A stretch of 52,655 nucleotides of DNA from Actinophytocola gossypii (GTDB lineage Bacteria; Actinomycetota; Actinomycetes; Mycobacteriales; Pseudonocardiaceae), in NCBI RefSeq assembly GCF_025165815.1, contig NZ_JAFFZE010000005.1, forward strand, positions 1-52,655, in the 5' to 3' direction. Positions 1 to 43,246 of this stretch are shown here, one piece after another. The notes beneath the pieces are model-generated. The model was not told where the DNA came from. It made no database searches and saw only the letters and a list, made by a program, of their open reading frames with translations. A program made the translations under genes and the position numbers. Position 1 is the first letter of the stretch, and every line of letters starts with the position of its first letter.

Positions 1-123
1 CGACCACCGATCGAGCTGACCGTAGGTGACAAACCGACCCGAATCCTCGATCGCGACCGCATCCGGCGTCGACCCGACCCGCACCCCGAACCGCGAAACC
101 AACGACATGGACGCGTCCCCCAT
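1..123 (-). CDS. NRPS adenylation domain, N-terminal fragment (runs off left edge)
   Basis: Only the first 41 codons are inside the window. They read as the opening of an adenylation domain: a short leader, then a LVSRF-like helix, TPDAVAI, and a VTYGQLD stretch that matches the usual start of A domains. The ATG at 121-123 is preceded by GAGGTGAAGGT, a good ribosome binding site. It lies 28 bases after the desaturase stop on the same strand, so it is the next gene of the biosynthetic operon. Substrate and later domains cannot be read. It starts without a condensation domain, like the other two A-domain proteins here. Confidence 0.8.
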   Translation of the reverse strand, partial: MGDASMSLVSRFGVRVGSTPDAVAIEDSGRFVTYGQLDRWS

Positions 124-151
124 ACCTTCACCTCATTGAGCGATGCGCGAG

Positions 152-1186
152 TCAGGCCACCTTGGGAATCGCGGATGACTGTGCGCGTGCCGTCGGCGGC
201 AGCGATCGGTAGATCTGCACCATGCCACCGAGTACCCCGCTGAGCCGGGGGAGCGCGGCGTACTCGGGGTCCTGCGCGAGGATGGCGTCGACCTCGCGCA
301 GGCGCCACATCGGCGTCCTGGGGAACAGGTGGTGGACCAGGTGGAATCCTTCGCCATCGGTCTCACCGAACAAGAAGCGGGTCCAGAACCCGTAGTCCCG
401 GTTCCACGACATGTAGAGGTCGATGCGCGGCGCGTTCTCGATGAGCGGGAAGTGCTCCATCAGCTCGGCGACCGCGCCGATCCAGACCTGGGTGGTCACC
501 AGCGGAACGAACCAGAGCAGGATCAACCACAGCCACCAGCCGCCGAGCACGGCCCACACCAGCACGGCGACGAGCAACGCGATGCGCAGGGCGCGCTCGA
601 GCGGTGCTTCAGCTTTCGACCAGATCCGGTGCCGCAGCAGGTAGAGGATGTACGAGCCGGTGGACTTCGGGCCGACCACCTTGCGCAGGTAGCGGTTCAG
701 CGCCGGGCGGCCCAGGTTGTCGCCGCACAGCCCGTTGTCCTTGTACTGGCGGTAGTCGGGATCGCGCTCCGGGTCGCCCAGACGGCCGTGGTGTTCGCCG
801 AGGTGGGACGCGCGGTACGCGGTCATGCTCTGCAGCACCGGGAACCCGCCGAAGAGGGCACCGAGGACAGTGCCGACACGGTGGTTGGCCATGAACGCGC
901 GATGCGCGGACATGTGCAGCACGCCCGCCACCGCGCGCTGCCGGCCGCCGATGAAGTAGACGGCGACCACGTACACCGGGATCGACGCCCAGAGCGCCAG
1001 GTTGTTGAACGTCCACACCGACGCCGCGCACCAGAACGCGATCCAGAACCAGTGCCGGACGAGTTCGGCGGGACCGTGCCAGTTGTCCGGACGAGACGCG
1101 ACGCGGACGGCGTCGAGAATCTCCGGAGCGAACCGATGACGAGTCCCTCGACCGCCTGACATGGTGTCGTCGATATTTGGCGACAT
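152..1186 (-). CDS. Membrane fatty-acid-desaturase-like diiron oxygenase
   Basis: A 344-residue membrane desaturase/hydroxylase. Three histidine clusters are visible: HMSAH (about 91-95), HLGEHH (about 128-133) and HLVHH (about 282-286), the pattern that binds two irons in membrane fatty acid desaturases. Hydrophobic segments lie near residues 45-80, 103-120 and 200-240. Such enzymes desaturate or hydroxylate an acyl chain at the membrane, using O2 and a reductase. Lying between two NRPS genes, 32 bases after the A-PCP-C stop, it probably tailors an acyl or polyketide part of the product. The real substrate is not evident. Start chosen at the first ATG; the Shine-Dalgarno match there (GGAG) is very close to the codon, so the start is uncertain. 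Confidence 0.85.
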   Translation of the reverse strand: MSPNIDDTMSGGRGTRHRFAPEILDAVRVASRPDNWHGPAELVRHWFWIAFWCAASVWTFNNLALWASIPVYVVAVYFIGGRQRAVAGVLHMSAHRAFMANHRVGTVLGALFGGFPVLQSMTAYRASHLGEHHGRLGDPERDPDYRQYKDNGLCGDNLGRPALNRYLRKVVGPKSTGSYILYLLRHRIWSKAEAPLERALRIALLVAVLVWAVLGGWWLWLILLWFVPLVTTQVWIGAVAELMEHFPLIENAPRIDLYMSWNRDYGFWTRFLFGETDGEGFHLVHHLFPRTPMWRLREVDAILAQDPEYAALPRLSGVLGGMVQIYRSLPPTARAQSSAIPKVA

Positions 1187-1218
1187 GCTCCGACTGTAGC
1201 CAACTCCACCGTTACGAT

Positions 1219-4200
1219 CTAGGAGCTGAGATCACCTCGCGCGGGCCGGTCGAGGAGCGTGCCGATCGGCTGGTCCGGCCCGGTCAGCGCCGCATCCAGA
1301 ATGGCCAGCAGGTCGGCCCGCCACCGCGCGGCGGACTCCGGGTCGAAGGCGTCGGCGGCGTACTCGATCTCGCCGACCAGGCCGGTCGATTCGTGCCGCG
1401 CCGTCCAACTCAGTGCCGTCTTCGCCGTTCGAGAATGCACGAAATGCTCGACGATGGTCAGCCCGGCGATGCCGTCGAGGCTGTCGAGCGGTGTCGACTG
1501 GAATCCGAACATTGCCTGGAAGATGGGGTTGTCGCCGGCCCGTGAGCTGCGCGAGGACGCCTCGACCACATCGACGAAGGGCAACTCCTGGTTCGTCAGG
1601 GCTTCGGTCATCGCCACGTCGACGTCGGCGACCACATCGCGAAAGCTCATGGTTTGGTCCAACCGGGCGCGCACCACGACCATGTTCATCAGGTACCCGA
1701 TGATGTTCTCGGTACCTGGGCGGTTGCGGCAGGCGACCGGCAGACCGACCACCGGCTCGTCCGTGCCGACCGCACGGCCCAAGGCGAGGAAAAAGGACGC
1801 GAGCAGGACGGTGAACGGAGTCGACCGGCACTCGCGGGCCACGCGCTCGACGGCCGCGGTGTCGATGGCCGACGGCGGCACCCGCAGCGCGAAGCCGGCC
1901 GAGCCGGCGCGGCGGGGCCCGGTGGTACGACCCGCTCGGTCCGCCGGCAACGGCGCGAGCGCGGGAGCGTCGGTCAGCTGCGCCGACCAGTAGGCCCGCT
2001 GCGCCGCCGCGTCCGGCCCCGCCAACCAGCGTTGCTGCCACGCGACGTAGTCGGCGTACCGCACGGTGATGTCCGGCAGCGGTCTGCCTTCGTAGAGCGC
2101 CGTGAGCTCACGCCAGAACACCGCGAGCGACCAGGCGTCGAACGCCGCGTGGTGCACGTTCAGCAACCACAACCATTCGCCGTCGAGCTGGAACGCGGAC
2201 GAGCGCAGCAGCGGTCCCCTGCCCAGGTCGAAGGGCACCTCGGCCGCGGCCTGCGCGCGGTCGGCGGCGTCCGCGAAGTCGTCCGCGCGGACGACCTCGG
2301 TCCGGACCGGCTCGGCGGGCTGGATGTGTTGCCACACCGAGCCGCCCTTCCGGACCAGCACCGTTCGCAGCGCCTCGTGCCGGGCGACGATGGTGGTCAG
2401 GGCGGCGTCCAGGCGTTCGAGGTCGAGCGGTCCGGTGATCTGGTAGCACACCGGGATCGCGTACAGGGGCGCACCTCGGTTCACCTGGTCGAGGTACCAG
2501 AGGGCCTGCTGCGCACGCGACGCCGGCTGCCACTCGTCGCGGCTCGCGGCGGGAACGATCGCCTGCTCGGGGGTGCCGGCGGCCCGCAGGCGCGTCACCG
2601 CCGCGGCGATCCCGGCGACGTGCGGGGCCGCGCGGAACTGCGCGAAGGTCAGCGCCACGCCGGTCACCTCGGCGACCTGGCTCAGGATCCGCATGCCCTG
2701 CAGCGAGTCCACGCCTACCGAGAAGAAGTTCTCGTGCCGGTCGTGCACCGGCACGCCGCGGACGTCGGCGACGACCCTGGCGACAGCGCGCTCGAGCGTG
2801 GTCATGGCCGCGTCGTCGAGACCTCCGGCTCGTGCCCTGCCGACCGGCGGCAGGGCGGCGCGGGACACCTTCCCGTTCAGCGGCGAGCGCGGGATCTTCG
2901 CCATCAGCACGATCGCCGACGGCAGCATGGACTCGGGCAGCCGCTCGACGAGCCCGGTCCTGAGCCCCGCCTCCGACACGTCGGGTCCGGCCTCGACGTA
3001 CGCGACGAGGGACGATCCCGTTGCCGGGTCGTCGACCACGACGGCCACGGCATCCTTGACGCCGTCCAGTTGGTGCAGCGCGCTCTCCACCTGACCGAGT
3101 TCCACCCGGCTCCCACGGATCTTCACCTGGCGGTCGGAGCGGCCGAGGAAGGAGAGCGTGCCGTCGGGTGCCCGGGCGGCGCGGTCGCCGGTCCGGTACA
3201 TCCGTGCCCCGGGCCGACCCTGCGGGTCGGGGCGGTAGCGGTCGGCGGTCATCGCCGGGGCGCCGTAGTAGCCGCGGGTCACCGGCGGGCCGCCCACCCA
3301 CAGGTCGCCGGGCTCGCCGTCGGGTACCGGCAGCAGCTCGTCGTCGAGGATGTACAGCGCCGCCCGCGCGAACGCACGGCCGAGCGATACCAGGGCATAG
3401 TCGGAACCGTCGGAACCGCCGATGCCGTCGCGGGCGGGATGGTGCAGGGCGACGCTGATCGAGGTCTCGGTCGGCCCGTAGTCCGACACCCAGTTGATCC
3501 GTTCCGCCCCCGGAACCTCGTACCAGGCCGCCAGCTTCTCGACGAGGATCTTGTCGCCACCGATGAACACGGTGCGCAGGCTCGGTGGCAGGCGCACCGC
3601 GCCGGCCACCAGGTCGTCGACCCACAGGTGCCAGTAGGCGCTCGGCAGGCTGACCATCGTCACCGACAGCCGCTCGACGAGGCTGGTGAACTCCCAGCTG
3701 GTGAACTTGCGCTGGGCGGGCATCACCACCGCACCGCCGGCCAGCCACGCCGGGAGGATCTCCTCCAGCGCGGCGTCGAAGGCCATCGCCGTGGACTGCA
3801 GCGAACGATCCCGCGGGCCGAGGGACAGTTGGTCCCGCAACGCCAGCGCGTGGTTGGCGAAGCTCGCGTGCGTGGCCGCGACCAGCTTGGGTTTGCCCGT
3901 CGAGCCCGACGTGAACACGCAGTACGCGAGGTTCGCCGGGTACACCTTCACCGGCGGCAGGACCGTGGGCGGGCCCGACAGGTCGAGGCCGTCGAGGTCG
4001 ATCGTCCGAACTCCCGCGAGTTCCACCGCGACGGGACCGTTGCCGATCAGCAAGGTCACCCCGGCGTCCGAGACCATGCCCTCGGCGACGTCGCGCGGCA
4101 GCGACGCGTCGATCGGGACGTACGCCCCGCCGGCCTTCCAGATCGCGAACATCGCCACCAGGAGCAGTGGCGAGGGCTCCATGCTCACGCCTACCAGGCG

Positions 4201-4380
4201 TTCGGGCCGCACCCCGAGTTCGACGAGCAGGTTGGCGAGCACGGTCGCCCGCTGGTCGAGTTCGCGGAAGGTGTGGCTTCCGCCGTCCCAGGCCACCGCC
4301 TCCGCGTCCGGGGTCTGCTCGACCTGCGCCTCGATGAGCCGGTGCACCAGGCTCGATCCCGGCTCCATGACCGGCTTCAT
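1219..4380 (-). CDS. NRPS, A-PCP-C
   Basis: A 1053-residue nonribosomal peptide synthetase protein. The adenylation domain covers about 1-510 (TSGSTGKPK near 157-165, YGPTET near 301-306, YRTGD near 395, NGKV with the catalytic Lys near 504). The carrier domain follows with SVGVDSL, attachment Ser near 559. A condensation domain comes last, with an intact HHAAFDA motif near 743-749. There is no N-terminal C domain, so aminoacyl transfer to the next partner relies on its own C-terminal C domain. Manual pocket reading gives roughly D-A-E-S-F-G-D-I-S-K, with acidic residues at two variable positions. The ATG overlaps the amidinotransferase stop (ATGA at 4377-4380), implying translational coupling, and a longer upstream reading frame is not needed. 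Confidence 0.88.
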   Translation of the reverse strand: MKPVMEPGSSLVHRLIEAQVEQTPDAEAVAWDGGSHTFRELDQRATVLANLLVELGVRPERLVGVSMEPSPLLLVAMFAIWKAGGAYVPIDASLPRDVAEGMVSDAGVTLLIGNGPVAVELAGVRTIDLDGLDLSGPPTVLPPVKVYPANLAYCVFTSGSTGKPKLVAATHASFANHALALRDQLSLGPRDRSLQSTAMAFDAALEEILPAWLAGGAVVMPAQRKFTSWEFTSLVERLSVTMVSLPSAYWHLWVDDLVAGAVRLPPSLRTVFIGGDKILVEKLAAWYEVPGAERINWVSDYGPTETSISVALHHPARDGIGGSDGSDYALVSLGRAFARAALYILDDELLPVPDGEPGDLWVGGPPVTRGYYGAPAMTADRYRPDPQGRPGARMYRTGDRAARAPDGTLSFLGRSDRQVKIRGSRVELGQVESALHQLDGVKDAVAVVVDDPATGSSLVAYVEAGPDVSEAGLRTGLVERLPESMLPSAIVLMAKIPRSPLNGKVSRAALPPVGRARAGGLDDAAMTTLERAVARVVADVRGVPVHDRHENFFSVGVDSLQGMRILSQVAEVTGVALTFAQFRAAPHVAGIAAAVTRLRAAGTPEQAIVPAASRDEWQPASRAQQALWYLDQVNRGAPLYAIPVCYQITGPLDLERLDAALTTIVARHEALRTVLVRKGGSVWQHIQPAEPVRTEVVRADDFADAADRAQAAAEVPFDLGRGPLLRSSAFQLDGEWLWLLNVHHAAFDAWSLAVFWRELTALYEGRPLPDITVRYADYVAWQQRWLAGPDAAAQRAYWSAQLTDAPALAPLPADRAGRTTGPRRAGSAGFALRVPPSAIDTAAVERVARECRSTPFTVLLASFFLALGRAVGTDEPVVGLPVACRNRPGTENIIGYLMNMVVVRARLDQTMSFRDVVADVDVAMTEALTNQELPFVDVVEASSRSSRAGDNPIFQAMFGFQSTPLDSLDGIAGLTIVEHFVHSRTAKTALSWTARHESTGLVGEIEYAADAFDPESAARWRADLLAILDAALTGPDQPIGTLLDRPARGDLSS

Positions 4381-5504
4381 ACGTAGGACTGCAGCTCGCC
4401 GCGACGGCGGACGTCGACTGTCGCGCAGTGGAACGAACCGCCGAAGCTGTTGAAGTTGCGGAACGGGCAGAGGACCGGGGTGATGCCCCAGCTCTCGGCC
4501 AGCCGCCGCATCGGCTCGTCCTGCGCCTCCACGAGCATGTGCTCCTCGTCGATCATCAGCACGTTCATGTTGATCCACTTGCTGGTCATGTAGAGCGGGT
4601 GGCTGTCCGGGATGACCGGTGGCGGCGCGGCTCGCACCTCCCAGTCCTTCAACAGGTCGGGCACCTCCGGCACCCGCTCGGGCTGGATGAGCAGCTTCCC
4701 GGGAGCGAGCGGCACCAGGCTCGCGTCGATGTGCATCGGGTGGTCGTCGTCGAGCGTGACCTCGTGGACGCGGTAGTCGTCGCCGAGGTGCCGGCGCAGC
4801 CATTCGATGCCCATCGCATTGGTGACGTGGCTGCGCTGGGCGAAGATGTCCCGGCCGAAGCGCATGAAGTCGGCCGCGTCGAAGGTCGGCTCGAACTCCG
4901 TGATCACCGAGCGGAACGGCTCACCGTCGGGCTGGTCGGTCCAGCCCTCGACGTACAGCTCGTCGGTCAGCTCCGGCATCGGCGCGGAGGCCCAGCGCGC
5001 CCCGCGCCGGAAGTACTCCTTCAACAGCGGTCGGAACGCCGACGACGCGTGGTGCCGCGACCGCCAGGACATCGGCGCTTCGATGATCTCGTCACCGACG
5101 ACGAGCAACAGGTCGCGCGGCATCGCGTCGTACAGCCCGGTGCTCGACCAGCCGGGAACGCCGTACGAGACGGAGTGATCGCGCGGTTCCGGCCGACGCA
5201 CCACGACGCCCATGCTCACCAGGATGTCCGCGAGCTGATCGAGCTCGTCCCGCGCGGCGGCCACCTGATCGGCCGGGAAGGGTTGCCCGGCCCGCTGCCG
5301 GAAGACCTCGCGCTGTGCGGGCGACAGCGGCGCGCCGACGGCGACGTGCCACGGCGGGAAATGGGCGTTGTCGACGATGCCGACAATGACTTCCTCGAGC
5401 GGATCCCACTCGTTGTAGGACTCGACCGGACCGGACGCCGCGGTCGCGGTGCCGAGAGCCTGGTCCAAGTCGTCGATCACGGTGTCTGTCCGGTCGCCGG
5501 CCAA
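4377..5504 (-). CDS. L-arginine:glycine-type amidinotransferase
   Basis: A 375-residue soluble enzyme that moves an amidino group from arginine to an amine, giving a guanidino compound plus ornithine. It matches animal AGAT and the cyanotoxin enzymes SxtG/CyrA over its whole length. The catalytic triad is present: Asp in FDAADF (about 209-212), His in PMHIDA (258) and Cys in GSFHCAT (360), followed by the typical DVRRRG. The start is a TTG at 5504 with AGGGGG six bases upstream; a GTG eight codons later is possible. It is translationally coupled to the A-PCP-C gene, which suggests that this A domain loads the guanidino product. The amino acceptor (glycine or another amine) cannot be told from sequence. 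Confidence 0.93.
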   Translation of the reverse strand: MAGDRTDTVIDDLDQALGTATAASGPVESYNEWDPLEEVIVGIVDNAHFPPWHVAVGAPLSPAQREVFRQRAGQPFPADQVAAARDELDQLADILVSMGVVVRRPEPRDHSVSYGVPGWSSTGLYDAMPRDLLLVVGDEIIEAPMSWRSRHHASSAFRPLLKEYFRRGARWASAPMPELTDELYVEGWTDQPDGEPFRSVITEFEPTFDAADFMRFGRDIFAQRSHVTNAMGIEWLRRHLGDDYRVHEVTLDDDHPMHIDASLVPLAPGKLLIQPERVPEVPDLLKDWEVRAAPPPVIPDSHPLYMTSKWINMNVLMIDEEHMLVEAQDEPMRRLAESWGITPVLCPFRNFNSFGGSFHCATVDVRRRGELQSYV

Positions 5505-5597
5505 TCTGAACCCCCTACTCCGCTGACCCTCAGGTCGTGGATCTAGCTTAGTTGTACGTTCGGTCGGATGATCAACATGCGATGGCAGCTGGGACCA

Positions 5598-8500
5598 TCA
5601 ACGGCCTTGGCGTAGCTCGCCGAGCGGGACGGTGGGGTTGGACAGCACCTGCTCCACCGTGGCCGCCAGGTCCGCCGCGTACGGCGCGAGGTCACTGGCC
5701 TGCGACAGCTCCGAGAGGATCTCGAACCCGGTGCCGTGCTCCTCGACGGTCACCAACGCCGGCCGGGGCATGTGCTCGCGCGGCAACGCCAGTGGTGCGG
5801 CCGGGAACCCGAACAGGTCCCCTGGACTCTCGTACGCGTAGTCGAACGCGATGAAGGCGGCGGGAAGTTGGCGGTAGCGCCGCTCCTGCAACAGCCGGTA
5901 CAGGCCGGCCGTGGCGTCCGAGGTGTCCACCAGCTGCGCCTGCACGTCCCTGGTCACGTCCGTCACGCTGTGACTGTCGGGGAGCTCCACGACGACCGGT
6001 AGCTGGTCGACGCAGAAGCCGACGAGCGGCTTGCCCGCGTAGTGCGGTTGCCCGGTCCGGTGGGCCATCATGATGGCCTGCGGGACCCCCATGAGCAGCG
6101 ACGACGCCACCGCCACCACCGACAGCGCCGCAGTGTGCATCGTGGACCGGCCGGCGCGGGACAAGCCACGCAGGTCGGCCAGGCGCTGCTCGGAGAACGA
6201 GTCGACGCGGCTGACCGGGACGAACGGCCCGGTACCGTCGATCATCCGGCCCGCCGTCCAGTACCTGTCCAGCTTCGGCCGCCACACCGCGGCGTTCGCG
6301 TCGAACCGGGCGTCCTCCTCGGCTCGCTTGGACCGCGCGTACGCCAGGAAGCTGGCGGGCGTGGGTAGGGCCTCGCTCGCCGCATCCCCCAGGTAACAGG
6401 ACGACAGTTCCGACCACAGAACCTCGAACGACCAGCCGTCCGCCACCGCGTGCGGCGCGGTTGCCTGAACGAACGAGGTGTCGCCGGTCCGCACGAGCTG
6501 GAACTGGAACAGCGACGGGACCGACATGTCGACCGGCCGGTTCGCGAACCGGCTGAGGATGGCCTCGACGTCCTCAGCCGACGCGTCGCTCATGGCGCAC
6601 GTGGTCAGCTTCGGAACGGCGCTGGCGACGCAGTTCTGGGCGGCGCCGTCCTGGTCGAACCCGATCCGCAGCGCCTCGTGCCGTTGCGCGACCGTCGCGA
6701 TCGCGTCCGCCAACCGCTGCTCGTCGATCGCGCCGTCGACCCGGCGCACGTCGGACATCTGGTAGGAGGCTCCGCGCTCGCCGCCCAGTTCGCTGCTCAT
6801 CCACAGCAGCTTCTGACCGTCGGTGAGCGGAGCCTCGCCGACGACCCGCGCTGGGTCGTCGGTGGTGTCGGCGGGGTCGGGGGTCGGCGGTTGCGGTGAC
6901 CGCGGCCGTGCTGGCGCCGCGCTGGTTCCCGGCCACAGGCCGCTCGCGGCGATCTCGGCCGCGGTGTCGGCGACGGTCCGCACGATGCGTTCGCGGTCCG
7001 CGTCGTCGTGCGCCGCGCTGAGAAAGCAGGTACGCCCCTCCCACACGTACACGCCGCGGCTGAGCAGGCCGAGGAAGAACATGTTCTCCGCGCGCTCGGA
7101 GCCGCCGACGTTGATGCGGAACAGGGACGAGAAGCTCTCGACCGTGACCGGATAACCGTGCGCCGCCGAGTGCGAGTTGATCGCCTCGGCCAGGTCCGCG
7201 GTCCGCCGGTTGAGGTCGGCCTGCAGCCGGGGCGACACCTTCTTCAGGTATCCGATCATGTGCTGCGCGACGGCCATCGCCATCGGTTGCTTGCTGAACG
7301 TTCCGGAGAACACCATGCTCGGCCGTTGCGGCAGTTCGCCCTGCCGCCAGCGACCGCCGTCGATGGGCGCCATGAACTCCGCGTCGCCCGCGATGACTCC
7401 GATGGGCATGCCGCCACCGATGACCTTGCCGTAGGTGACCAGGTCCGGGCGGACGCCGAAGTACCCGGCCGCGCCCGCCGGGTGGCACCGGAAGCCGGTG
7501 ATGATCTCGTCGAAGATCAGGGCGGCACCCAGGTCGCTGGTGAGCGTGCGCAGCCGCCGCAGTAGCTCGCCGGGCTGGTATCCGGGACGTCGGCTCTGGA
7601 CCGGCTCGACCAGCACCGCCGCCAGCCGTTCGCCGTAGAACTCGAGGATGGGGATCGCCGACTCGTCGTACGGGACGACGATGACGTCCTGGACCATGCC
7701 GGCCGGCGTGCCCCGGCCGAGGGTCGTCGTCTCGCCCGGCAGCCCACCGGCCCGAGGAGCCACCATGACGCCGTCGAACGTGCCGTGGAACGAACCGGTG
7801 AACACGGCGATCAGGTCTCGTCCGGTCCTGGCGCGAGCCGCGCGCACCGCCGCCATCACCGCCTCGGTTCCCGAGGTGGCGAAACCGACCCGGTCGACCC
7901 CCGTCAGTGACGCGATCCCGCGGGCCACGTCACCCGCGGTCGACGACTGCGGGCCGAGCAACAGTTCGGAGGGATCGAAGGAGCTCAGGGCCTGCCGCAC
8001 CGGTTCGGACGCGTGTCCCAGCATGGTGACGCCGAAGCCCATGCACAGGTCGAGGTACTCGCAGCCGTCCACGTCGACGAAGTGCGAGCCCTCACCATGG
8101 ACCCCGACCACCGGGTAGCTCACCTCGCGCCGGCCCGTACGCAGCGAGAACACCACGTTCCGCTGGTCGACGAGCGTGTACCGGTCCTCCTCGGTGACTC
8201 GTTTCGACACCGGGGTGCGCCTGGCCCACTCCTGCTCCTCCTCCGCCGGGAGCGCGGCGGTCTCCTCGAGCGACCGGGCGGGCTCGGACGGCGGAGCCGG
8301 GGTGCGGACCGGCGCCGGGGCCGCGGCGGGCGCTGCACCGTCGCCCGTCGGGTGCCAGCTCGCCGGCACGATGCCGGCGAGGTGCTCGGCCAGGAGGGCG
8401 GGCGAATCCCGCTCGAAGTACAGCAGACGGATGTCGACGGCGACCCGGAACTCGGCCGACAGCGCGTCCGCCAGCTGAATGAGCAGGAACGAGTCGTACC

Positions 8501-11276
8501 CGATGTCGATGAAGGACGCGTTCGGCGCCACCTCCTGCGTCGTGCGTCCCACCAGCTTCGCGACGACCCGGCGGATGCCTTCTTCGATGCTGTGGCGGTC
8601 CGCGTTCGGCAGCGGTTGCGCCGGCGCCGGGCTTGGTTCTGCCGACATTGGCTCCCTCTCCTCGCCGCCTCGGTCGACGTCGCCTCGGTCGACGTCGCTG
8701 CGGTCGAACGCGTAGGTGGGGGCATGGACGACCGCCGGCGCGCCGTCCGCGCGGTGCTTTGTGGTGGTCGGGAGCACCTGGTCGTGCCCGGCCGTCCAGG
8801 CCGTCGCGAGCAGCCGGGCGCGCGAGTTCGCGTCGTACCCGGCCTGGTCGGCGGTGGTCATGGCCACCGCGTCGGTACCGAACACGTCCTTGACGAACGG
8901 GGTGACGCCCGTGCTGGAGTCCAGGACGACGGCCAGGTTCGCGCCGTCCGCGTGCAGCGCGCTCATGGCGTCACCGAACCGGACCGTCCGGATCAGCTGG
9001 CCGGCCCAGAACGCGGGGTCCCGGGCAGTCGCCTCGTCGAGCCAGCCGCCGGTCGTCGGCGACATCAGTCGCAGCGCCGGGGCCCGCAGGTCGAGCTGGG
9101 CCCAGGTCTCGGTGTACTTCTCGACGAACGGCCGCAGGACCGCGCTGTGGAACGGGTGCGCGACCGGAATCCGGACCGAGGCGACCCGGTCGGCCCGCAA
9201 CTCGGCGGCGACGGCCTCCACCGCGAGCGACTCGCCGCTGAGGATGCAGTCCTTGGCGCCGGGCACGATCGCCACCGAGACACCGTCGCGGAGGTACCGA
9301 GGCACCGAGTCCGCCGGCAGCCGCACGCGGATCATCGCGCCGGCCGGAGCGTTCGCCAGGATGCGGGCCCGATCGGTGATCGCGGCCGCGGCATCGGCCA
9401 GGGTGAACACCCCGCCGACCACGCCGGCTGCGACCTCGCCGAGGCTGTAGCCGCACAGCGACCGGGGCTGGATGCCGTCGGCGAGCAACGATCTCGCGAT
9501 CGCCACGGATCGGACGAGCATCGCGAGCTCGGTGATCCGCGGCGTGGCCTCCGCCGCCGGCGCACCGGTGAGCCGGGCCGCCACCAGCGGCCGGTCCTCG
9601 ACCGCCAGACTCGACAAAGCCGCCGAGAACACGTCGGCGAATCCGTCGATCTCGTCCTCGGCCACGGTCAGGTCACCGAGCGCGGTCCCCTGGCCGGGGA
9701 ACACGAGCACGGTGTGGTGCTTCTTCTTCGCCCGCCGGATCCCCGTTCGCCACGTGCCGACATGCTCGGCGCGCCGCACGACGACAACCGCCTCCCGGTG
9801 GGCGAGCACCCGCCGGCCCGTCGTCATCGTGTGGGCGAGCCGGCCGAGAACGTCCGGGTTCCCGGTGGCGAAGTCCGTCACGCGGTTCGCCGTGTCCTCG
9901 GCGCTGCGCGGCGACGCGGCGCTGACCGGCAGCACGTGGACGCCGTCGCTCGGCAGCTGGGCCGGCTCGGGCACCGGCGCCTGTTCGAGGACGAAATGCG
10001 CGTTGGTGCCACCGACACCGAGCGAGCTCACGCCGGCCAGTCGCGGACGTCCGTCGTCCTCCCAGGGAGTCGAGTCGCCGGGAACGAACAACCGAGCGCT
10101 CGGCGTGATCCGCGGATTGAGCCGCGCGAAGTTCGCGACCGGGGGAATCCGGCCGTGGCCGAGGACGAGGGCGGTCTTGATCAGTCCGACGATGCCCGCC
10201 GCGGGACCGAGATGGCCGACGTTCGCCTTGACCGCGCCGATGGCGCACCGCGTCCCGTCGACACCGAGTGCGCGTTCGAGGGCCTCCCACTCGACGACGT
10301 CGCCGACCTCGGTGGCGGTGCCGTGGGTCTCCACGTAACCGATGTCGCCCTTGTCCACCCCCGCGGCGGCCAGCGCCTCGCTGACGACCTGGCTCTGCTG
10401 GTTGACGCTCGGCGCCGTGAACCCGACCTTTCGCTTGCCGTCGTTGTTGATGGCGCTGCCGCGGATGACGGCGTGGATCGCGTCGCCGTCGGCGAGCGCG
10501 TGGTCGAGTCGCTTGATGACGACCGCCCCCGCCCCACTCGCCGAGATCGTGCCACTGGCGGAGGCGTCGAACGGGCTGCAGCGGCCGTCGGCGGACCAGA
10601 TGCTGCCTTCCTGGTGGTAGTAGCCACCCCGCTGGGGGTGCTCGACGTTGACGCCGCCCGCCACGGCCACGTCGGACTCACCGGACAGCACGCTCTGGCC
10701 GGCGAGGTGCAGTGCGACCAGCGAGCTGGAACAGGCGCTCTGCACGGTCATCGAGGGCCCACGGAGGTCGAGGGCATAGGCGATCCGGGTGGACAGGAAG
10801 TCGTGGTCGAGCAGCGCGACCCAGTTGATCGCCTCCGACGACTTGAGCGGCCTCGTCGCGTCGCCGTACCTCGGGTCGCCGACGCGCTCCAGGACCGTGA
10901 TCGGCGACGCGGCGCCCCCGGCGGCGAACAACCCGATCCTGCCGGGATGGCGCAGCGGGTCGCACCCGGCGTCCTCCAGCGCCTCGAGGACGACTTCGGT
11001 CATGACCCGGTGATTGACGTTGATCCCCTGGGCCTCCCCGGCGGTGATGCCGAAGGCCGCGTGGTCGAACTCGTCGTGGTGCTCGATCGGCGCCGCGACG
11101 GGGACGTAGCGGTTTCCCACCTCCGCCGGGAGGCTGATCCCCTCGCGCCGGCGATCCTGCTCGGTGACCTCCACCATGCCGGTCGCACCGGCCTCGACAT
11201 TGGCCCACAGCGCGCGATAGTCGTTGGCACCGGGAACTCGGCACGCCATCCCCACGATGGCCAGTGGCTCACGCAT
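5598..11276 (-). CDS. Hybrid PKS-aminotransferase-NRPS megasynthase, KS-AT-ACP-AMT-C
   Basis: About 1890 residues. KS: VQSACSSSL with the active Cys near 182, VETHGTA His near 318, KANVGHL His near 355; the VQ-AC form is typical of KS domains that accept peptidyl or aminoacyl substrates. AT: FPGQG, GYSLGE and HPFHS, pointing to malonyl-CoA. ACP: GYDSF, Ser near 929. Then a class III (glutamate-semialdehyde aminotransferase-like) domain with FDEIITGF and PLP Lys in TYGKV near 1284, and a C domain with PHAVADG. There is no KR, DH or C-methyltransferase. As in McyE and mycosubtilin synthase, the beta-keto group should be transaminated to a beta-amine before condensation. Start set at the second ATG (11276), which has GAAGG upstream; an in-frame ATG at 11288 is the alternative. 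Confidence 0.92.
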   Translation of the reverse strand: MREPLAIVGMACRVPGANDYRALWANVEAGATGMVEVTEQDRRREGISLPAEVGNRYVPVAAPIEHHDEFDHAAFGITAGEAQGINVNHRVMTEVVLEALEDAGCDPLRHPGRIGLFAAGGAASPITVLERVGDPRYGDATRPLKSSEAINWVALLDHDFLSTRIAYALDLRGPSMTVQSACSSSLVALHLAGQSVLSGESDVAVAGGVNVEHPQRGGYYHQEGSIWSADGRCSPFDASASGTISASGAGAVVIKRLDHALADGDAIHAVIRGSAINNDGKRKVGFTAPSVNQQSQVVSEALAAAGVDKGDIGYVETHGTATEVGDVVEWEALERALGVDGTRCAIGAVKANVGHLGPAAGIVGLIKTALVLGHGRIPPVANFARLNPRITPSARLFVPGDSTPWEDDGRPRLAGVSSLGVGGTNAHFVLEQAPVPEPAQLPSDGVHVLPVSAASPRSAEDTANRVTDFATGNPDVLGRLAHTMTTGRRVLAHREAVVVVRRAEHVGTWRTGIRRAKKKHHTVLVFPGQGTALGDLTVAEDEIDGFADVFSAALSSLAVEDRPLVAARLTGAPAAEATPRITELAMLVRSVAIARSLLADGIQPRSLCGYSLGEVAAGVVGGVFTLADAAAAITDRARILANAPAGAMIRVRLPADSVPRYLRDGVSVAIVPGAKDCILSGESLAVEAVAAELRADRVASVRIPVAHPFHSAVLRPFVEKYTETWAQLDLRAPALRLMSPTTGGWLDEATARDPAFWAGQLIRTVRFGDAMSALHADGANLAVVLDSSTGVTPFVKDVFGTDAVAMTTADQAGYDANSRARLLATAWTAGHDQVLPTTTKHRADGAPAVVHAPTYAFDRSDVDRGDVDRGGEEREPMSAEPSPAPAQPLPNADRHSIEEGIRRVVAKLVGRTTQEVAPNASFIDIGYDSFLLIQLADALSAEFRVAVDIRLLYFERDSPALLAEHLAGIVPASWHPTGDGAAPAAAPAPVRTPAPPSEPARSLEETAALPAEEEQEWARRTPVSKRVTEEDRYTLVDQRNVVFSLRTGRREVSYPVVGVHGEGSHFVDVDGCEYLDLCMGFGVTMLGHASEPVRQALSSFDPSELLLGPQSSTAGDVARGIASLTGVDRVGFATSGTEAVMAAVRAARARTGRDLIAVFTGSFHGTFDGVMVAPRAGGLPGETTTLGRGTPAGMVQDVIVVPYDESAIPILEFYGERLAAVLVEPVQSRRPGYQPGELLRRLRTLTSDLGAALIFDEIITGFRCHPAGAAGYFGVRPDLVTYGKVIGGGMPIGVIAGDAEFMAPIDGGRWRQGELPQRPSMVFSGTFSKQPMAMAVAQHMIGYLKKVSPRLQADLNRRTADLAEAINSHSAAHGYPVTVESFSSLFRINVGGSERAENMFFLGLLSRGVYVWEGRTCFLSAAHDDADRERIVRTVADTAAEIAASGLWPGTSAAPARPRSPQPPTPDPADTTDDPARVVGEAPLTDGQKLLWMSSELGGERGASYQMSDVRRVDGAIDEQRLADAIATVAQRHEALRIGFDQDGAAQNCVASAVPKLTTCAMSDASAEDVEAILSRFANRPVDMSVPSLFQFQLVRTGDTSFVQATAPHAVADGWSFEVLWSELSSCYLGDAASEALPTPASFLAYARSKRAEEDARFDANAAVWRPKLDRYWTAGRMIDGTGPFVPVSRVDSFSEQRLADLRGLSRAGRSTMHTAALSVVAVASSLLMGVPQAIMMAHRTGQPHYAGKPLVGFCVDQLPVVVELPDSHSVTDVTRDVQAQLVDTSDATAGLYRLLQERRYRQLPAAFIAFDYAYESPGDLFGFPAAPLALPREHMPRPALVTVEEHGTGFEILSELSQASDLAPYAADLAATVEQVLSNPTVPLGELRQGR

Positions 11277-11308
11277 TCGGGCCTTCATTCATCGGCGGGG
11301 CCGTCCGG

Positions 11309-12658
11309 CTACCGCTTGAGGATCTCGGTCAGCCCGAGCGAGTCCATCGCGTTGTCGGGCTGCCGCAGCAGGGTTGCCAGGATCTCCAGGTACGCGTCGC
11401 AGTAGCGGTCGGCGAGTCGAGGTGAGTACGCGCGCAACGCGTACTGCCAGTCCAGGGCGATGCCGGCCGCGGTGATGTCGCAGACCACGCCGAGGTCGAA
11501 CGGCCCCTGGGAGGTACGCGAGACCCGCTCCGACAGGTTGCCCTCGCCCAGGCTCAGCCCGCCGGCGGTCCCGGCGGAGAACGTCGTCCGGACCAGTTCG
11601 GCGTCGGACGGTGCGTCCTTGCGCCAGACCTCCAGCACCCGGCTGAACGGCACGTCCTGGTAGTCGATGGCATCCAGCAGACCGAGCGAGACGTCGGCCA
11701 GCGTGTCGGTGAACGTCCTGGACAGATCGACCCGCGACCGGGGCACGACCGTGTTCGCCAGCATCCCCACGGTGCGCGCGAATCTCGGGCCGCGACTGCT
11801 GGTCGTGACCCCGATGCACACGTCGTCGCCGCCGGTCGCGGCGGCGATCATGACGTTCATCGCGCCGAACAGCACGGCGAACGGCGTCGACTCGGCACGG
11901 CGCGAGAACGCGGACACCGCGGCGGCCAGCTCGGTGTCGAGCGTCATGCTCACCAGCATGGTGGCGAACGGTGCGGTGGAAACCGAGGTGGAGTCTCCCG
12001 GCAGCACACTGCCGATGGCTCCCGCGAGCCGTTCGCTCCAGTACGCCAGGTCCGCACCGGCCGCGTCGTCGGCCAAGCCGGCGAGCTGCTCGGTCACGAA
12101 GGCGCGGTATCCCGGCACGGCCGGCTCGGGGTCGGGCGTCGTGCCCAGCCGGGCCGAGCGGTAGAACTTCCCGAAGTCGTCGACGACGACCGCTATCGAG
12201 ATGCCGTCACAGACGATCTGGTGAGCGGCCAGGACCAAGCCGGTCCGGTCGTCCGACAACAGCATGACGGTGAGCGTGATCGCCGGCCGGGCGGTCAGGT
12301 CGAACGGCGCGTCGGCCGCGGCGCTGATGGCGGATTCCAACCGCTCGGCCTGCTCGGCACCGGACAGCGTCCGCAGATCGACCACGTCGATCGGGATGCG
12401 CTCCGGATCGGGGCTGACGATCTGCACGACGCCGTCCGCCGTCTCGTGGAACGTCGTACGCAGGGCTTCGTGGCGGCGCGCCGTTTCGTGCAAGGCGAAC
12501 CTGGCGGCGGCGAGGTCGAAGACGCCTTCGAAGAAGTAGACCTCCGGCATGACGTAGGCCGGGCTCTGCGGGTTGTGCCGCCAGAAATTCCAGATCGGTT
12601 CTTGCAGCGGGCCGAGTGGGAACGGTGTCGCCGGTTCGTCGGCACCCGTGCCCGTCAA
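11309..12658 (-). CDS. Free-standing condensation domain with altered HHxxxDG motif
   Basis: A 449-residue protein that is a single C domain: an N-terminal FPLGPLQEPIW-like C1 motif, RHEALRTTF, and a C-terminal MLANTVVPRS-like motif. The core motif reads HQIVCDG (codons CAC CAG), so the second His, normally the catalytic base, is Gln. The Asp and Gly are kept. It probably starts at TTG 12658, overlapping the TGA of the A-PCP gene; no better start precedes the domain. Its place between an A-PCP and the PKS suggests it could join the amino acid on that PCP to a donor, or act as a recruiting or non-catalytic domain. Whether it still condenses is open. Confidence 0.88.
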   Translation of the reverse strand: MTGTGADEPATPFPLGPLQEPIWNFWRHNPQSPAYVMPEVYFFEGVFDLAAARFALHETARRHEALRTTFHETADGVVQIVSPDPERIPIDVVDLRTLSGAEQAERLESAISAAADAPFDLTARPAITLTVMLLSDDRTGLVLAAHQIVCDGISIAVVVDDFGKFYRSARLGTTPDPEPAVPGYRAFVTEQLAGLADDAAGADLAYWSERLAGAIGSVLPGDSTSVSTAPFATMLVSMTLDTELAAAVSAFSRRAESTPFAVLFGAMNVMIAAATGGDDVCIGVTTSSRGPRFARTVGMLANTVVPRSRVDLSRTFTDTLADVSLGLLDAIDYQDVPFSRVLEVWRKDAPSDAELVRTTFSAGTAGGLSLGEGNLSERVSRTSQGPFDLGVVCDITAAGIALDWQYALRAYSPRLADRYCDAYLEILATLLRQPDNAMDSLGLTEILKR

Positions 12659-14415
12659 TGCACGACCCGGATGAGCTTGCAGAGGTTCCGGGTGTTGCGC
12701 GCCTGGAAGAAGTCCCGCAGTCGCACCCGCACGCCGAGTTCTTCGCGAATCTGAGCCAGGATGTTCAGCGAGTCCAGCGAACTGAGTCCCAGTGTGAAGA
12801 AGTCGTCGTCGATCGAGCAGTGGCTGTCCAACGTCGTGCGCACGATCGTGATGACTCGCCGCTCGACGTCGCTCAGGCCGGCGTCGTCGTCCTCGGCGTC
12901 CGGCGCGTCGGTCTCCGCCGGCTTGACCAGTGTCGCGAGCGCCGAGACGTCAACCTTCCCGCGTTCGGTCACCGGCAGGGACTCCACCCGCCGAAGGATC
13001 GCGGGCACCTCGTACGCGGGCAGTTCACTCACCAGGTGGTCGCGGACACTCGCCTCGCTGCCGTCACCGTCACCGTTGCCGACGTAGCAGGCGACCAGGA
13101 TCGGGTTCGGTGCGTCGCGGTGGACGAACGCGACCGACTGGGCGACGGCGGGATGCCGATTGAGGACGGTCGAGATCTCGGTCAGTTCGATCCGCCGGCC
13201 GTTGACCTTGACCTGGTCGTCCAACCGACCCAGGAAGCTGTAGGCGCCGTTCGACGACGGCTTCACCAGGTCGCCGGTCCGGAACAGCCGCGACCCGGGC
13301 GGACCGGACGGGTTCGGAACGAATCGCTCGGCGGTCAGCCGCGGGTTGTTCAGGTAACCGCGTGCGACACCCGCGCCGCCCACGTACAGGTGTGCCGGCT
13401 CGCCGTCGACCGCGGGGTCGAGATCGGCGTTCCCGTACAGCTGAACGTGCACCCCGGGCAGAGCCGCGCCGATCGGCGCCTCGACGAACTCGTCGTTGTC
13501 CAACCGGCCGCCCGTCGCCGCGACGGTCGTTTCCGTCGGCCCGTACTGCACCATGACCGTGCAGCCGTTCGCGACCAGGGTGCGGACGAGGTTGTTGGGC
13601 ACCGCTTCGCCGCCGATGAATCCGAGTCGCACGTTCGAGTCGGGCAGGTATCCCGCGCCCAACAATCCCGAGTACCACGACGGCACGCCACTCAGGACCG
13701 TGACCTTGTGTTCCGCGATGCAGTCGATGTGGTCCTGCCAGGAGCCTTCGGTCAGGTCCGGTGCGACGACGAGCTCGGCGCCCGCGGCGAGCAGCAGAAC
13801 GGGGCGGAGCGACGCGTCGAAGGACAGGTCGGCCGACAGCAGCACCCGCTGGTCGCCCTCGCGGTGCACGCCCGGCTGGGTCACCAGGTCATGGAGATAC
13901 TTCGTGTAGTTGTCCAACGCGCCGTACTCGACGCCGACGGGCTGCGGGACGCCCGTGGAGCCGGACGTGCAGATGGCATAAGCGAGATTCCGTTCGGTCG
14001 CGCTCGCGCCGTGCGCCCGGGTGCGTGCCTCGCCCAGGCGCCGGACCCGGAGTCCGGATTCCCCCGGCATGCCGGGCGTCGCCCCGGCGTCGGCCGGCTC
14101 CAGGACGAAGGTGGCCGACTCGGCGAGGACGAGCTCACGCCGGCGCTCTGGCCAGTTCTTGTCGACCGGCAGGTACGCCGCCCCGGCCATCCAGATGGCA
14201 AGCACCGCGACGACCGGGTTCCCGCCGCGCGGCAACACTGTCGCGACCACGTCTTCCGGGCCGACACCCTGAGCCAGCAGGAGATCGCTGACGCCCCGCA
14301 CCGTCGACAGCAGATCGCCGTAGTCGAGGGATCCTTCGCCGGCGCGCAACGCGGCTCGGCGTGGGTCCCGTGCGGCGATATCGCTGACTCGCTCGAGCAG
14401 GAACGTTGCGGTCAC
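12655..14415 (-). CDS. NRPS, A-PCP
   Basis: A 586-residue adenylation-carrier didomain. Motifs: CTSGSTGVPQP (150-159; the usual PKG is PQP), SFDAS (198-202), YGPTETTV (291-298), FRTGD near 378, RGKV near 485 with the catalytic Lys, and a carrier motif TLGLSSL near 541-547 with Ser 546. The LGLSSL form is closer to ACP-like carriers than to the common GGDSL. Manual pocket reading is about D-A-R-G-F-G-Q-V-A-K, which I cannot assign. It is the first gene of the leftward operon: GTG start with GGGGGGAG six bases upstream. It overlaps the downstream C domain gene by four bases. It activates an amino or hydroxy acid and holds it as a thioester. Confidence 0.9.
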   Translation of the reverse strand: MTATFLLERVSDIAARDPRRAALRAGEGSLDYGDLLSTVRGVSDLLLAQGVGPEDVVATVLPRGGNPVVAVLAIWMAGAAYLPVDKNWPERRRELVLAESATFVLEPADAGATPGMPGESGLRVRRLGEARTRAHGASATERNLAYAICTSGSTGVPQPVGVEYGALDNYTKYLHDLVTQPGVHREGDQRVLLSADLSFDASLRPVLLLAAGAELVVAPDLTEGSWQDHIDCIAEHKVTVLSGVPSWYSGLLGAGYLPDSNVRLGFIGGEAVPNNLVRTLVANGCTVMVQYGPTETTVAATGGRLDNDEFVEAPIGAALPGVHVQLYGNADLDPAVDGEPAHLYVGGAGVARGYLNNPRLTAERFVPNPSGPPGSRLFRTGDLVKPSSNGAYSFLGRLDDQVKVNGRRIELTEISTVLNRHPAVAQSVAFVHRDAPNPILVACYVGNGDGDGSEASVRDHLVSELPAYEVPAILRRVESLPVTERGKVDVSALATLVKPAETDAPDAEDDDAGLSDVERRVITIVRTTLDSHCSIDDDFFTLGLSSLDSLNILAQIREELGVRVRLRDFFQARNTRNLCKLIRVVH

Positions 14416-14586: not shown

Positions 14587-16332
14587 GTGGCCCCGTTCAC
14601 GCACCGCATCCCCGAGCTCGGGCCAGAAGGGATCGATCACCGATCGGCTGCCAGGTACTTTCTCGGGCTCATCGCGCTGCAGAAGGCCAGCACGGCCTGG
14701 GGCGTGGTGACCTCCGGAGTGTGGAACGTCAGCCAGGCGTTCATCCCGGTCTTCATCGGTCTGGCGGTGGATCGCGGTATCACCGGTGGTGACACCGGTG
14801 AACTGATCCTGTGGTCCGGCGTCGTCTTCGTACTCGGCCTGGTGCGAGCGGGGGCGGGAGTCGCGTTCTACCGACAGACGATCATCACCCGGACCGTGTC
14901 CAGTGGCCTGACGGTGCAGCTGATCACCCGGCATGTCACCAAGCTCGGCCGCTCGCTGTCGCGCGAGCACGACGTCGGCAACCTGACCGCGACGGTGACC
15001 TCGGACGTGACCACCATCGGACTCGGGCTGCTGCACGTCGGCCGGGTCCTCGGCTCGGTCGTGGCCGTCATCGCCGTCACCATCATCATGCTGACGATCT
15101 CGGTACCGCTCGGCCTTCTGGTCCTGGTGACGGTTCCCGCCCTCCTCGCGCTCAGCGGGCTGCTCCTACGAACCCTGCACCGGAACCAGGACGCCTACCG
15201 GTCGCAGCAGGGAAAGTTGGCGGTACGAGCCGTCGACATCGCGTCGGGCCTGCGGGTGCTGCGGGGGGTCGGCGGCGAAAAGCACTTCTCGGCGGCTTTC
15301 CATTCCGACTCCGCACAACTGCGGGTCGCCGACACCGAGGTGTCCCGGGCCGAGTCGAGTCTCGATTCGGCCCGCATCCTCGTACCGGCACTGATCACGG
15401 CGATCGTCACCTACGCCGCGGCGCGCTTCGCGCTCGACCAGCAGGTGACGATCGGCGAGATGGTGGCGTTCTACGGATTCGCGGTCTTCCTCGCCCTGCC
15501 CCTCGACGACATCATGATGGGCGCGAGCCAGGTGACCCAGACGCTCGTCTCGGCCGGTCGGGTGACGGCGTTGCTGAACACCGAAGTGCCGGACCGGACG
15601 CGCCCGGACACGCCCACCGGGGACTGGCACGGGGCCCGCCTCGTCGATCCGGTATCCGGATTGGACGTACCACCGTCGACGCTGATGTCGGTCGCCTGCG
15701 CCGATTCTTCCGATGCCGACCTGCTCGCTCAGCGGTTGACGCGCTCCGACGACTCCGGCGAGGTCACCCTGGGCGGCGAGCGGCTCGATTCGCTGCCGAT
15801 CTCGGTCGTGCGTTCCCGAGTGCTGCTGGCGCACAACAGCGACCGGTTCTTCGGTGAAACCGTGCGCCACGAGATCGCACCGTTCGCGTCGGCCGGTCCG
15901 GAGCGGATCGCGGCCGCTCTCGAGGTCGCCTGCGCCGGGGACGTCATCGAAGCCCTTCCGGACGGCCTGGACACGAAGATGCACGGGCGCGGCCGCACGT
16001 TCTCCGGCGGTGAGTTGCAACGACTGCGACTCGCCCGCGCGATCCTGGCCGACGCCGAGATCACGTTGCTGGTCGAGCCGACCAACGCGGTCGACGCGTA
16101 CACAGAGGACGCCATCGCCGCGAACCTGGCCAGGTACCACCGCGCTCTTCCGGACGGCCGGAGCACGATCGTGTTCACGGTGAGTCCACTGCTGCTGCAG
16201 CACGCGCAGCTGGTCGCCTACGTGGTCGACGGTCGCGTGGTGGCCACCGGGAAGCACCACGAGCTGCTCGAACAGCACCCCGGCTACCAGGACCTGATGA
16301 TGCGCGACGAAGCCGCGGTGGTCGACGACTGA
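14587..16332 (+). CDS. ABC exporter half-transporter with degenerate NBD
   Basis: A 581-residue half-transporter: an N-terminal six-helix membrane domain (about 20-320) and an NBD. The signature motif is intact (FSGGELQRLRLAR, about 472). The Walker A loop is lost; the matching stretch reads SVACADSSDAD. The Q-loop Gln is His/Asn (LLAHNSDRFF), Walker B lacks its Asp (LLVEPT) and the H-loop His is missing (FTVSP). It therefore cannot bind ATP normally alone, but gives the C-loop for its partner. GTG start with GAGAGGAGAGG upstream. The stop overlaps the next ABC gene by one base (TGATG). Divergent from the NRPS operon, so it probably exports the product. A fusion or pseudogene is unlikely because the frame is full length. 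Confidence 0.9.
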   Translation: MAPFTHRIPELGPEGIDHRSAARYFLGLIALQKASTAWGVVTSGVWNVSQAFIPVFIGLAVDRGITGGDTGELILWSGVVFVLGLVRAGAGVAFYRQTIITRTVSSGLTVQLITRHVTKLGRSLSREHDVGNLTATVTSDVTTIGLGLLHVGRVLGSVVAVIAVTIIMLTISVPLGLLVLVTVPALLALSGLLLRTLHRNQDAYRSQQGKLAVRAVDIASGLRVLRGVGGEKHFSAAFHSDSAQLRVADTEVSRAESSLDSARILVPALITAIVTYAAARFALDQQVTIGEMVAFYGFAVFLALPLDDIMMGASQVTQTLVSAGRVTALLNTEVPDRTRPDTPTGDWHGARLVDPVSGLDVPPSTLMSVACADSSDADLLAQRLTRSDDSGEVTLGGERLDSLPISVVRSRVLLAHNSDRFFGETVRHEIAPFASAGPERIAAALEVACAGDVIEALPDGLDTKMHGRGRTFSGGELQRLRLARAILADAEITLLVEPTNAVDAYTEDAIAANLARYHRALPDGRSTIVFTVSPLLLQHAQLVAYVVDGRVVATGKHHELLEQHPGYQDLMMRDEAAVVDD

Positions 16333-18561: not shown

Positions 18562-18667
18562 CGGTGTCTCCCGGGGGTCGTAGAACGCCGGTCACGAACC
18601 GGCCAATTGTGGCCGGTGGCGCATCGATAGGGTGAATCCCGGGGTCGGCGGTGGCGAGAGGGACGAT

Positions 18668-43109: not shown

Positions 43110-43246
43110 GGATTCTCCAGGTAGGTGGAACAGAATGCCTCGTCCGGCTTTCTCCTCCATCGTCCCCGGGCGCCCACCAGTTACGGGAAGGCCGCCAGCC
43201 AGCCGCGCACATGGATGCGGCCGGCTACGGGCGTGGTGTCTCTGCT

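Follow-up and report, generated by a model that had tools for sequence, protein, structure and literature searches.

A split NRPS-PKS gene cluster of Actinophytocola gossypii predicted to assemble a small peptide with a beta-amino acid and an arginine-type residue

Introduction

Modules in which a ketosynthase (KS), an acyltransferase (AT), an acyl carrier protein (ACP) and an aminotransferase (AMT) follow one another are known from mycosubtilin and microcystin, where they start from a fatty or phenylacetate-type starter. Among actinobacteria, a hybrid of nonribosomal peptide synthetase (NRPS) and polyketide synthase (PKS) with an amidinotransferase is found in the guadinomine cluster of Streptomyces sp. 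K01-0509, which uses aminomalonyl-ACP, leads to a carbamoylated cyclic guanidine and resembles, by its general description, the cluster treated here. In this study, we describe an NRPS-PKS cluster at one end of a 52,655-nucleotide stretch of Actinophytocola gossypii (contig NZ_JAFFZE010000005.1; the whole stretch is called the window). We suggest that the window carries about half of one cluster of roughly 34 kb, and that its product is probably a small peptide containing hydroxyarginine, threonine (4-chlorothreonine in this genome) and a beta-amino acid. The best explanation as a whole, with its building blocks and routes, is given a probability of about 0.5. Genes, residues, linkage and conservation were read from the sequence, and all substrates and products are predictions made from them.

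Results

Organization of the cluster in the window

Contig C27, one of the 53 contigs of a 7.38-Mb genome, makes up the window. As base 1 is the end of this contig, the cluster is truncated at the left, and the idea of a full cluster inside the window was rejected because the contig end cuts a free-standing adenylation (A) gene. The first-pass annotation, made on the window alone, had named seven items from an A domain with peptidyl carrier protein (PCP) to a further A domain; Pfam and phmmer searches found all of them between 14415 and 1, arranged as stated and encoded on the minus strand. The last item is a real A gene start, but only its first 41 codons lie inside the window. The genes are as follows (C, condensation domain; ABC, ATP-binding cassette).

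12655..14415, minus strand: A1-PCP, 586 codons (AMP-binding 4.9e-51, PCP 2.1e-11; specificity letters DARSFGQVA; PCP serine kept)
11309..12658, minus strand: free-standing C domain, 449 amino acids (C 8.2e-59; HHxxxDG reads HQIVCDG)
5598..11288, minus strand: KS-AT-ACP-AMT-C, 1896 amino acids (KS 1.4e-56, AT 7.8e-18, ACP 7.7e-10, class-III aminotransferase 5e-42, C 3e-28)
4377..5504, minus strand: AGAT-family amidinotransferase, 375 amino acids (phmmer matches to solved structures)
1219..4380 (upper bound approximate), minus strand: A2-PCP-C (A 1.9e-68, PCP 1.3e-9, C 2e-77; specificity letters DAESFGDIS)
152..1186, minus strand: GntB-like membrane diiron-type hydroxylase (PF00487 8.8e-36; three His boxes)
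1..123, minus strand: free-standing A gene, first 41 codons, ATG at 123, cut at the contig end
14587..16332, plus strand: ABC exporter half 1, found in each of the seven clusters compared below, diverging from the biosynthetic genes
16332..18101, plus strand: ABC exporter half 2, likewise present in all seven and diverging

The Pfam scan of A2-PCP-C used an open reading frame (ORF) from an upstream start at 4803. A 102-amino-acid ORF at 3-308 lies in another frame than the free A start, and its Pfam scan gave no match.

The KS, AT, ACP and class-III aminotransferase stand in one chain with their catalytic residues present: KS C-H-H, AT GYSLGE and HPFH, the ACP serine and the lysine for pyridoxal phosphate (PLP) in GKVIGGG. 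The HPFH motif is presumably that of a malonyl-type AT. The chain matches MycA of mycosubtilin (AMT against 6kfm, 354.8 bits; ACP-AMT against 6kfu, 372.4 bits), so that the beta-amino acid unit named in the first-pass annotation is of the mycosubtilin kind, and a beta-amino acid in the predicted product is well supported. In the free C domain, Gln replaces the second, catalytic His of HHxxxDG, and no PCP was found in its 449 amino acids. The second His is retained in the other four C domains of the cluster, of which two differ elsewhere in the motif (PHAVADG after the AMT, and HHAAFDA). The AT serine, the PCP serines, the thioesterase (TE) motif GWSFGG and the hydroxylase His boxes are also intact.

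Remainder of the cluster on two further contigs

Over its first 133 bases, on the minus strand, contig C23 shares 99% identity with the free A start of the window. Contig C25 (8662 bases) starts and ends with inward-pointing C-terminal halves of free A genes, and these halves are 92% alike as protein. It suggested that the two free A genes broke the assembly and that C25 lies between C27 and C23. C25 contains a mycofactocin-type short-chain dehydrogenase/reductase (SDR), two methyltransferase-like genes, MbtH, a halogenase, a second membrane hydroxylase and a GntC-like PLP enzyme, while C23 contains C-PCP, C-PCP-PCP-TE, a free A3 and then mycofactocin genes. Genome G107 of the same family, assembled as one contig of 7.12 Mb, carries all the cluster genes seen on C27, C25 and C23 within a single 33-kb locus; identities are 65-93%, and there is one free A gene against two in the window genome. 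The family is presumably Pseudonocardiaceae, since G062, a genome ranked in it, has the Lentzea locus at identical coordinates and Lentzea belongs to Pseudonocardiaceae. We read the parts on the three contigs as one cluster, and G107 confirms this. The halogenase, the Thr-type A domains, C-PCP-PCP-TE and the second hydroxylase were thus outside what the first-pass annotation could see.

An A gene followed by the SDR, the order seen in G107 and Catellatospora, speaks for C25 in the forward orientation, whereas the block of hydroxylase, GntC-like gene and methyltransferase matches G107 only when reversed. These orders conflict, and an inversion must therefore have happened. The halogenase matches CytC3 (509 bits) and SyrB2 (443 bits), has HxA (WHQAATF) in place of HxD/E, and passes TIGR01762 with 444.7 bits against a cut-off of 226.3.

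A mycofactocin maturase and MftR were also observed at L001 9975-12244 on C23, about 3.4 kb beyond A3, in addition to the mycofactocin-type SDR of C25. An MftC-like ORF seems, by eye, to lie near the Catellatospora cluster.

Conservation and distribution

A scan of the genome collection with the amidinotransferase gave 53 loci. Four of them showed 81-84% identity (Catellatospora, S. bluensis, Actinomadura and Lentzea) and the next 61%; 60-kb stretches of these top four were then compared. Each of the four has retained the amidinotransferase, A2-PCP-C, KS-AT-ACP-AMT-C, the two ABC genes and the second hydroxylase. Together with the window genome, G107 and G177 they make seven clusters, which share this core, the GntB-like gene and the same A2 code. 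The GntB-like gene is present in a single copy in the Catellatospora, S. bluensis, Actinomadura, Lentzea and window genomes; in Catellatospora it stands on a separate contig, at its end. Among 390 genomes from the bacterial family, five have it (1e-60), and in a sample of the phylum it was matched only in the window's own genome (1/396, 1e-40).

A close GntC-like gene is present in five clusters (window genome, Catellatospora, Lentzea, G107 and G177) and adjoins the second hydroxylase in all five. The C domain before the KS lacks the catalytic His in three (window, Catellatospora and G107) and keeps it in the other four. Some amidinotransferase was matched at 1e-3 in 17 of 100 relatives. In the amidinotransferase tree (57 rows), the seven cluster members form one clade (100/100), and their sister group consists of G009, G031, G039 and Actinoplanes.

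Adenylation-domain codes

The specificity letters were read by alignment, following the usual position rules for A domains. The A2 code DAESFGDIS is identical in all eight genomes found with a GntB-like gene, namely the seven clusters and G179. In G179, the DAESFGDIS A domain and the GntB-like gene are 23 kb apart, no amidinotransferase match was found in the genome, and the 60 kb read gave no match to the KS-AMT. As G179 keeps the code without the amidinotransferase, the A2 substrate seems tied to the GntB-like enzyme and not to the amidinotransferase. The A2 letters Glu239 and Asp322, as we interpret them, suggest that the substrate is probably cationic. This supports the guanidine-bearing peptide of the first-pass annotation in so far as a cationic, probably guanidino, residue is expected. 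Since the code is the same in 8/8 genomes, including the amidinotransferase-free G179, we propose that this residue is hydroxyarginine, probably gamma-hydroxyarginine. The stretch of G179 that was read (G179:C1:425001-485000, L099-L101) is a different large NRPS locus, which holds the GntB-like gene, the DAESFGDIS A domain and two halogenase-like genes (33-38%).

The two A halves of C25 read DVWNVAMVH and DFWNVGMVH, the second of which we take to be the Thr code (DFWNVGMVHK). Thr-type letters occur in the window genome, S. bluensis, Actinomadura, G107 and G177; Catellatospora has DFFSIAMVH at this position, and no such letters were seen among the Lentzea A domains read by alignment. The A1 letters DARSFGQVA are also present in Catellatospora and G107, and with one change in G177. 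The A3 letters DPFYLALIT are shared with Lentzea, G107 and G177, and with one change with S. bluensis.

Membrane hydroxylases and the GntC-like enzyme

The best NCBIfam model for the membrane enzyme at 152..1186 is GntB (NF041365, arginine gamma-hydroxylase), and the enzyme has the three His boxes typical of a membrane diiron fold (HMSAH, HLGEHH and HLVHH). For the PLP enzyme of C25, the best model is GntC (NF041364), at 261.6 bits and under the cut-off of 415. In GntC, N52, T84 and H250 are reported to serve the gamma-hydroxyl group and the guanidine (PMC10367076). The alignment, judged by eye, shows Tyr, Val and Val at these positions, while K219, S25, R346, D186 and Y189 are kept. The enzyme also scores higher against another aminotransferase structure, 3op7 (191.9 bits), than against GntC (161.3). 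The GntC-like gene as proof of enduracididine was rejected, as the substrate residues are changed and the distribution of the gene does not follow the A2 code.

Amidinotransferase

The amidinotransferase gave no Pfam match at 1e-3. In phmmer searches against solved structures, it matched HsvA (1.5e-118), human AGAT (8.5e-118) and SxtG, all at 1.2e-110 or better. It has the Asp/His/Cys catalytic triad of the AGAT type (FDAADF, PMHIDA and GGSFHC) and Met302, by the residue roles given in PMC3684758 and PMC4887976. The Asn300 position of AGAT is His in the window enzyme. According to PMC4887976, His is found there in the homoarginine-making AmtA, too, and by the same study the residue is not diagnostic for glycine as acceptor.

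Relatives of the amidinotransferase adjoin a relative of the second hydroxylase in G009, G039 and G031, and so does a less closely related one in Pseudoalteromonas. The GntB-like gene was absent in whole-genome searches of Pseudoalteromonas and G009, and was not found in the 40-kb stretches of G039 and G031. In G031, a gene of the ornithine cyclodeaminase family lies about 1 kb beyond the pair, on the opposite strand. In Pseudoalteromonas, a fused Lys/Orn N-monooxygenase and flavin mononucleotide (FMN)-binding protein comes next after the pair; we take it to be a piperazate pair. Among the part of the neighbours scanned in G009 and G039, no ornithine enzyme was recognized. The run of Pseudoalteromonas luteoviolacea (L017 851-12008), with all genes in one direction, holds the amidinotransferase, the membrane hydroxylase, the fused protein, a haem-oxygenase-like enzyme, one ORF, PhzF, a cupin and an NRPS.

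Exporter and neighbouring genes

The ABC pair as a siderophore importer was rejected, since the best 60 structures listed for each half are exporters, such as an a-factor exporter, P-glycoprotein and MsbA; the best NCBIfam model is MsbA, under its cut-off. A protein with HTH-XRE and NACHT domains (18632-20842, plus strand) adjoins the exporter genes, but was rejected as a cluster member, as the stretches searched in seven relatives gave no match. Farther along the window there are a large helicase with an MTES_1575 nuclease domain (34482-39734, minus strand; PADLOC candidate defence model PDC-S37, 3.1e-60) and a protein that combines a GmrSD_N domain with a Schlafen AlbA_2 domain in one chain (40776-43160, minus strand; PADLOC PDC-M55C, 6e-26).

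Discussion

We propose the following route. A1-PCP would load an amino acid, which would pass directly to the KS, bypassing the free C domain, because this domain is without a PCP and no longer has the catalytic His. The KS-AT-ACP part would extend it with malonate, and the AMT would convert the beta-keto group to an amine, giving a beta-amino acid that the following C domain may join to the arginine-type residue loaded by A2. The GntB-like membrane enzyme would produce this residue. C-PCP and C-PCP-PCP-TE are expected to add Thr and one more residue and to release the chain, with the Thr-type free A domains and A3 serving their PCPs in trans. The halogenase may chlorinate the carrier-bound Thr to 4-chloro-Thr, as it matches CytC3 and SyrB2, passes TIGR01762, and shares contig C25 with the Thr letters. 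The amidinotransferase and the second membrane hydroxylase would more likely supply ornithine or hydroxyornithine from arginine than a guanidino starter, and ABC1-ABC2 would export the product.

Several observations weigh against this explanation. The GntB-like enzyme scores 227.8 bits, under the 380 cut-off of its model, although GntB being the best match is in line with the membrane oxygenase tailoring suggested by the first-pass annotation. Of the eight genomes with DAESFGDIS, seven have the cluster by common descent, and only G179, with its two genes 23 kb apart, is a separate context. In the stretches read, the halogenase is found in only two clusters (window genome and G107) and the Thr letters in five of the seven, and chloro-Thr is therefore not a family trait. 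Ornithine-using neighbours occur in two of the four amidinotransferase-hydroxylase places outside the family, where neighbours were partly scanned, and no ornithine-using gene was recognized in the window cluster. On the amidinotransferase tree, three changes are needed to explain which enzymes are paired with the hydroxylase, and no such hydroxylase is seen in the 21-kb locus of Actinoplanes aureus, a member of the sister clade. The A1, A2 and A3 letters were not found in the main text of one survey of codes (PMC12283262); this says little, because the Thr code used here is absent from the same text.

Another explanation, in part that of the first-pass annotation, is that the product of the amidinotransferase is a guanidino acid or guanidino amino acid, serving either as the starter of the line or as the substrate of A2. 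The enzyme stands immediately before A2-PCP-C, in the same direction, in 7/7 clusters, and its catalytic residues are intact, but the A2 code is unchanged in G179, and the pairing with the hydroxylase and the ornithine-using neighbours point elsewhere. A1 has Asp235 and Arg239, which would be odd for a guanidino acid; Asp235 in A domains is usual for alpha-amino acids. The His shared with AmtA agrees with a guanidino product, yet in PMC4887976 swapping the two differing flap residues of AmtA is reported to have left the acceptor unaltered, so the flap match to AmtA tells little. For their own amidinotransferase, the authors of the diperamycin study propose ornithine supply (PMC10888640). We consider a guanidino product doubtful and rank the supply of ornithine or hydroxyornithine above it, at a little under even odds, with the remaining probability left to neither of the two.

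It is improbable that the GntB-like and GntC-like enzymes make L-enduracididine for loading by A2. GntB and GntC are indeed the top NCBIfam models and a close GntC-like gene is found in 5/7 clusters, but both enzymes score under the model cut-offs, the three substrate residues of GntC are replaced and 3op7 is the better match. Moreover, the A2 code is the same in S. bluensis and Actinomadura, which have no close GntC-like gene, and where the gene is present it adjoins the second hydroxylase and not the GntB-like gene. Decay of the cluster into an inactive state, to which the lost His of the free C domain might point, is very improbable. The other checked active sites are present, the other four C domains keep this His, and G107 keeps every cluster gene. 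As the change is found in three genera (those of the window, Catellatospora and G107), it looks like a stable redesign.

Returning to the hydroxyarginine-containing peptide, we tentatively suggest that the clusters represent a natural-product family in at least four actinobacterial families. In this family, a GntB-type hydroxylase would feed hydroxyarginine to the DAESFGDIS A domain, which might be the first recognizable code for it. A separate amidinotransferase-hydroxylase cassette, found also in unrelated clusters from Pseudoalteromonas to Pseudonocardiaceae, would make hydroxyornithine by removal of the amidino group, the PKS-AMT would give the beta-amine, and Thr would be chlorinated in two genomes. 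No description of such a cluster was found in the open-licence literature of PubMed Central, which misses most subscription papers, and a named product may already be on record. This agrees with the statement of the first-pass annotation that no described actinobacterial cluster with this exact set is known to it, although six other genomes hold the core. The family offers testable substrate predictions, such as an A-domain code that tracks a membrane arginine hydroxylase. If the amidinotransferase product is ornithine and not a guanidine, genome mining should be warned against reading all such enzymes as guanidine makers. The undivided copy in G107 and the copies in S. bluensis JCM 4729, Lentzea xinjiangensis and Catellatospora bangladeshensis make product discovery practical.

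Comparison with known systems

The module of the window has the domain order of the mycosubtilin module (MycA), in which the ACP is followed by a class-III PLP aminotransferase and then by a C domain, and presumably also that of the McyE module of microcystin. Unlike these, it is a stand-alone gene in a split NRPS and would receive an amino acid from an A-PCP, bypassing a C domain that is apparently inactive. The amidinotransferase belongs to the same sequence family as AGAT, HsvA, SxtG and AmtA and shares their triad and Met302, but falls in its own seven-member clade. GntB and GntC of guanitoxin provide the best curated models for the hydroxylase and the PLP enzyme, both below the equivalog cut-offs and the latter with three substrate residues changed. 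The SyrB2 and CytC3 halogenases, which act with Thr-type A domains, have their counterpart in the halogenase and Thr letters of C25, where, unlike in those systems, the Thr-type A domain stands alone and has no PCP attached.

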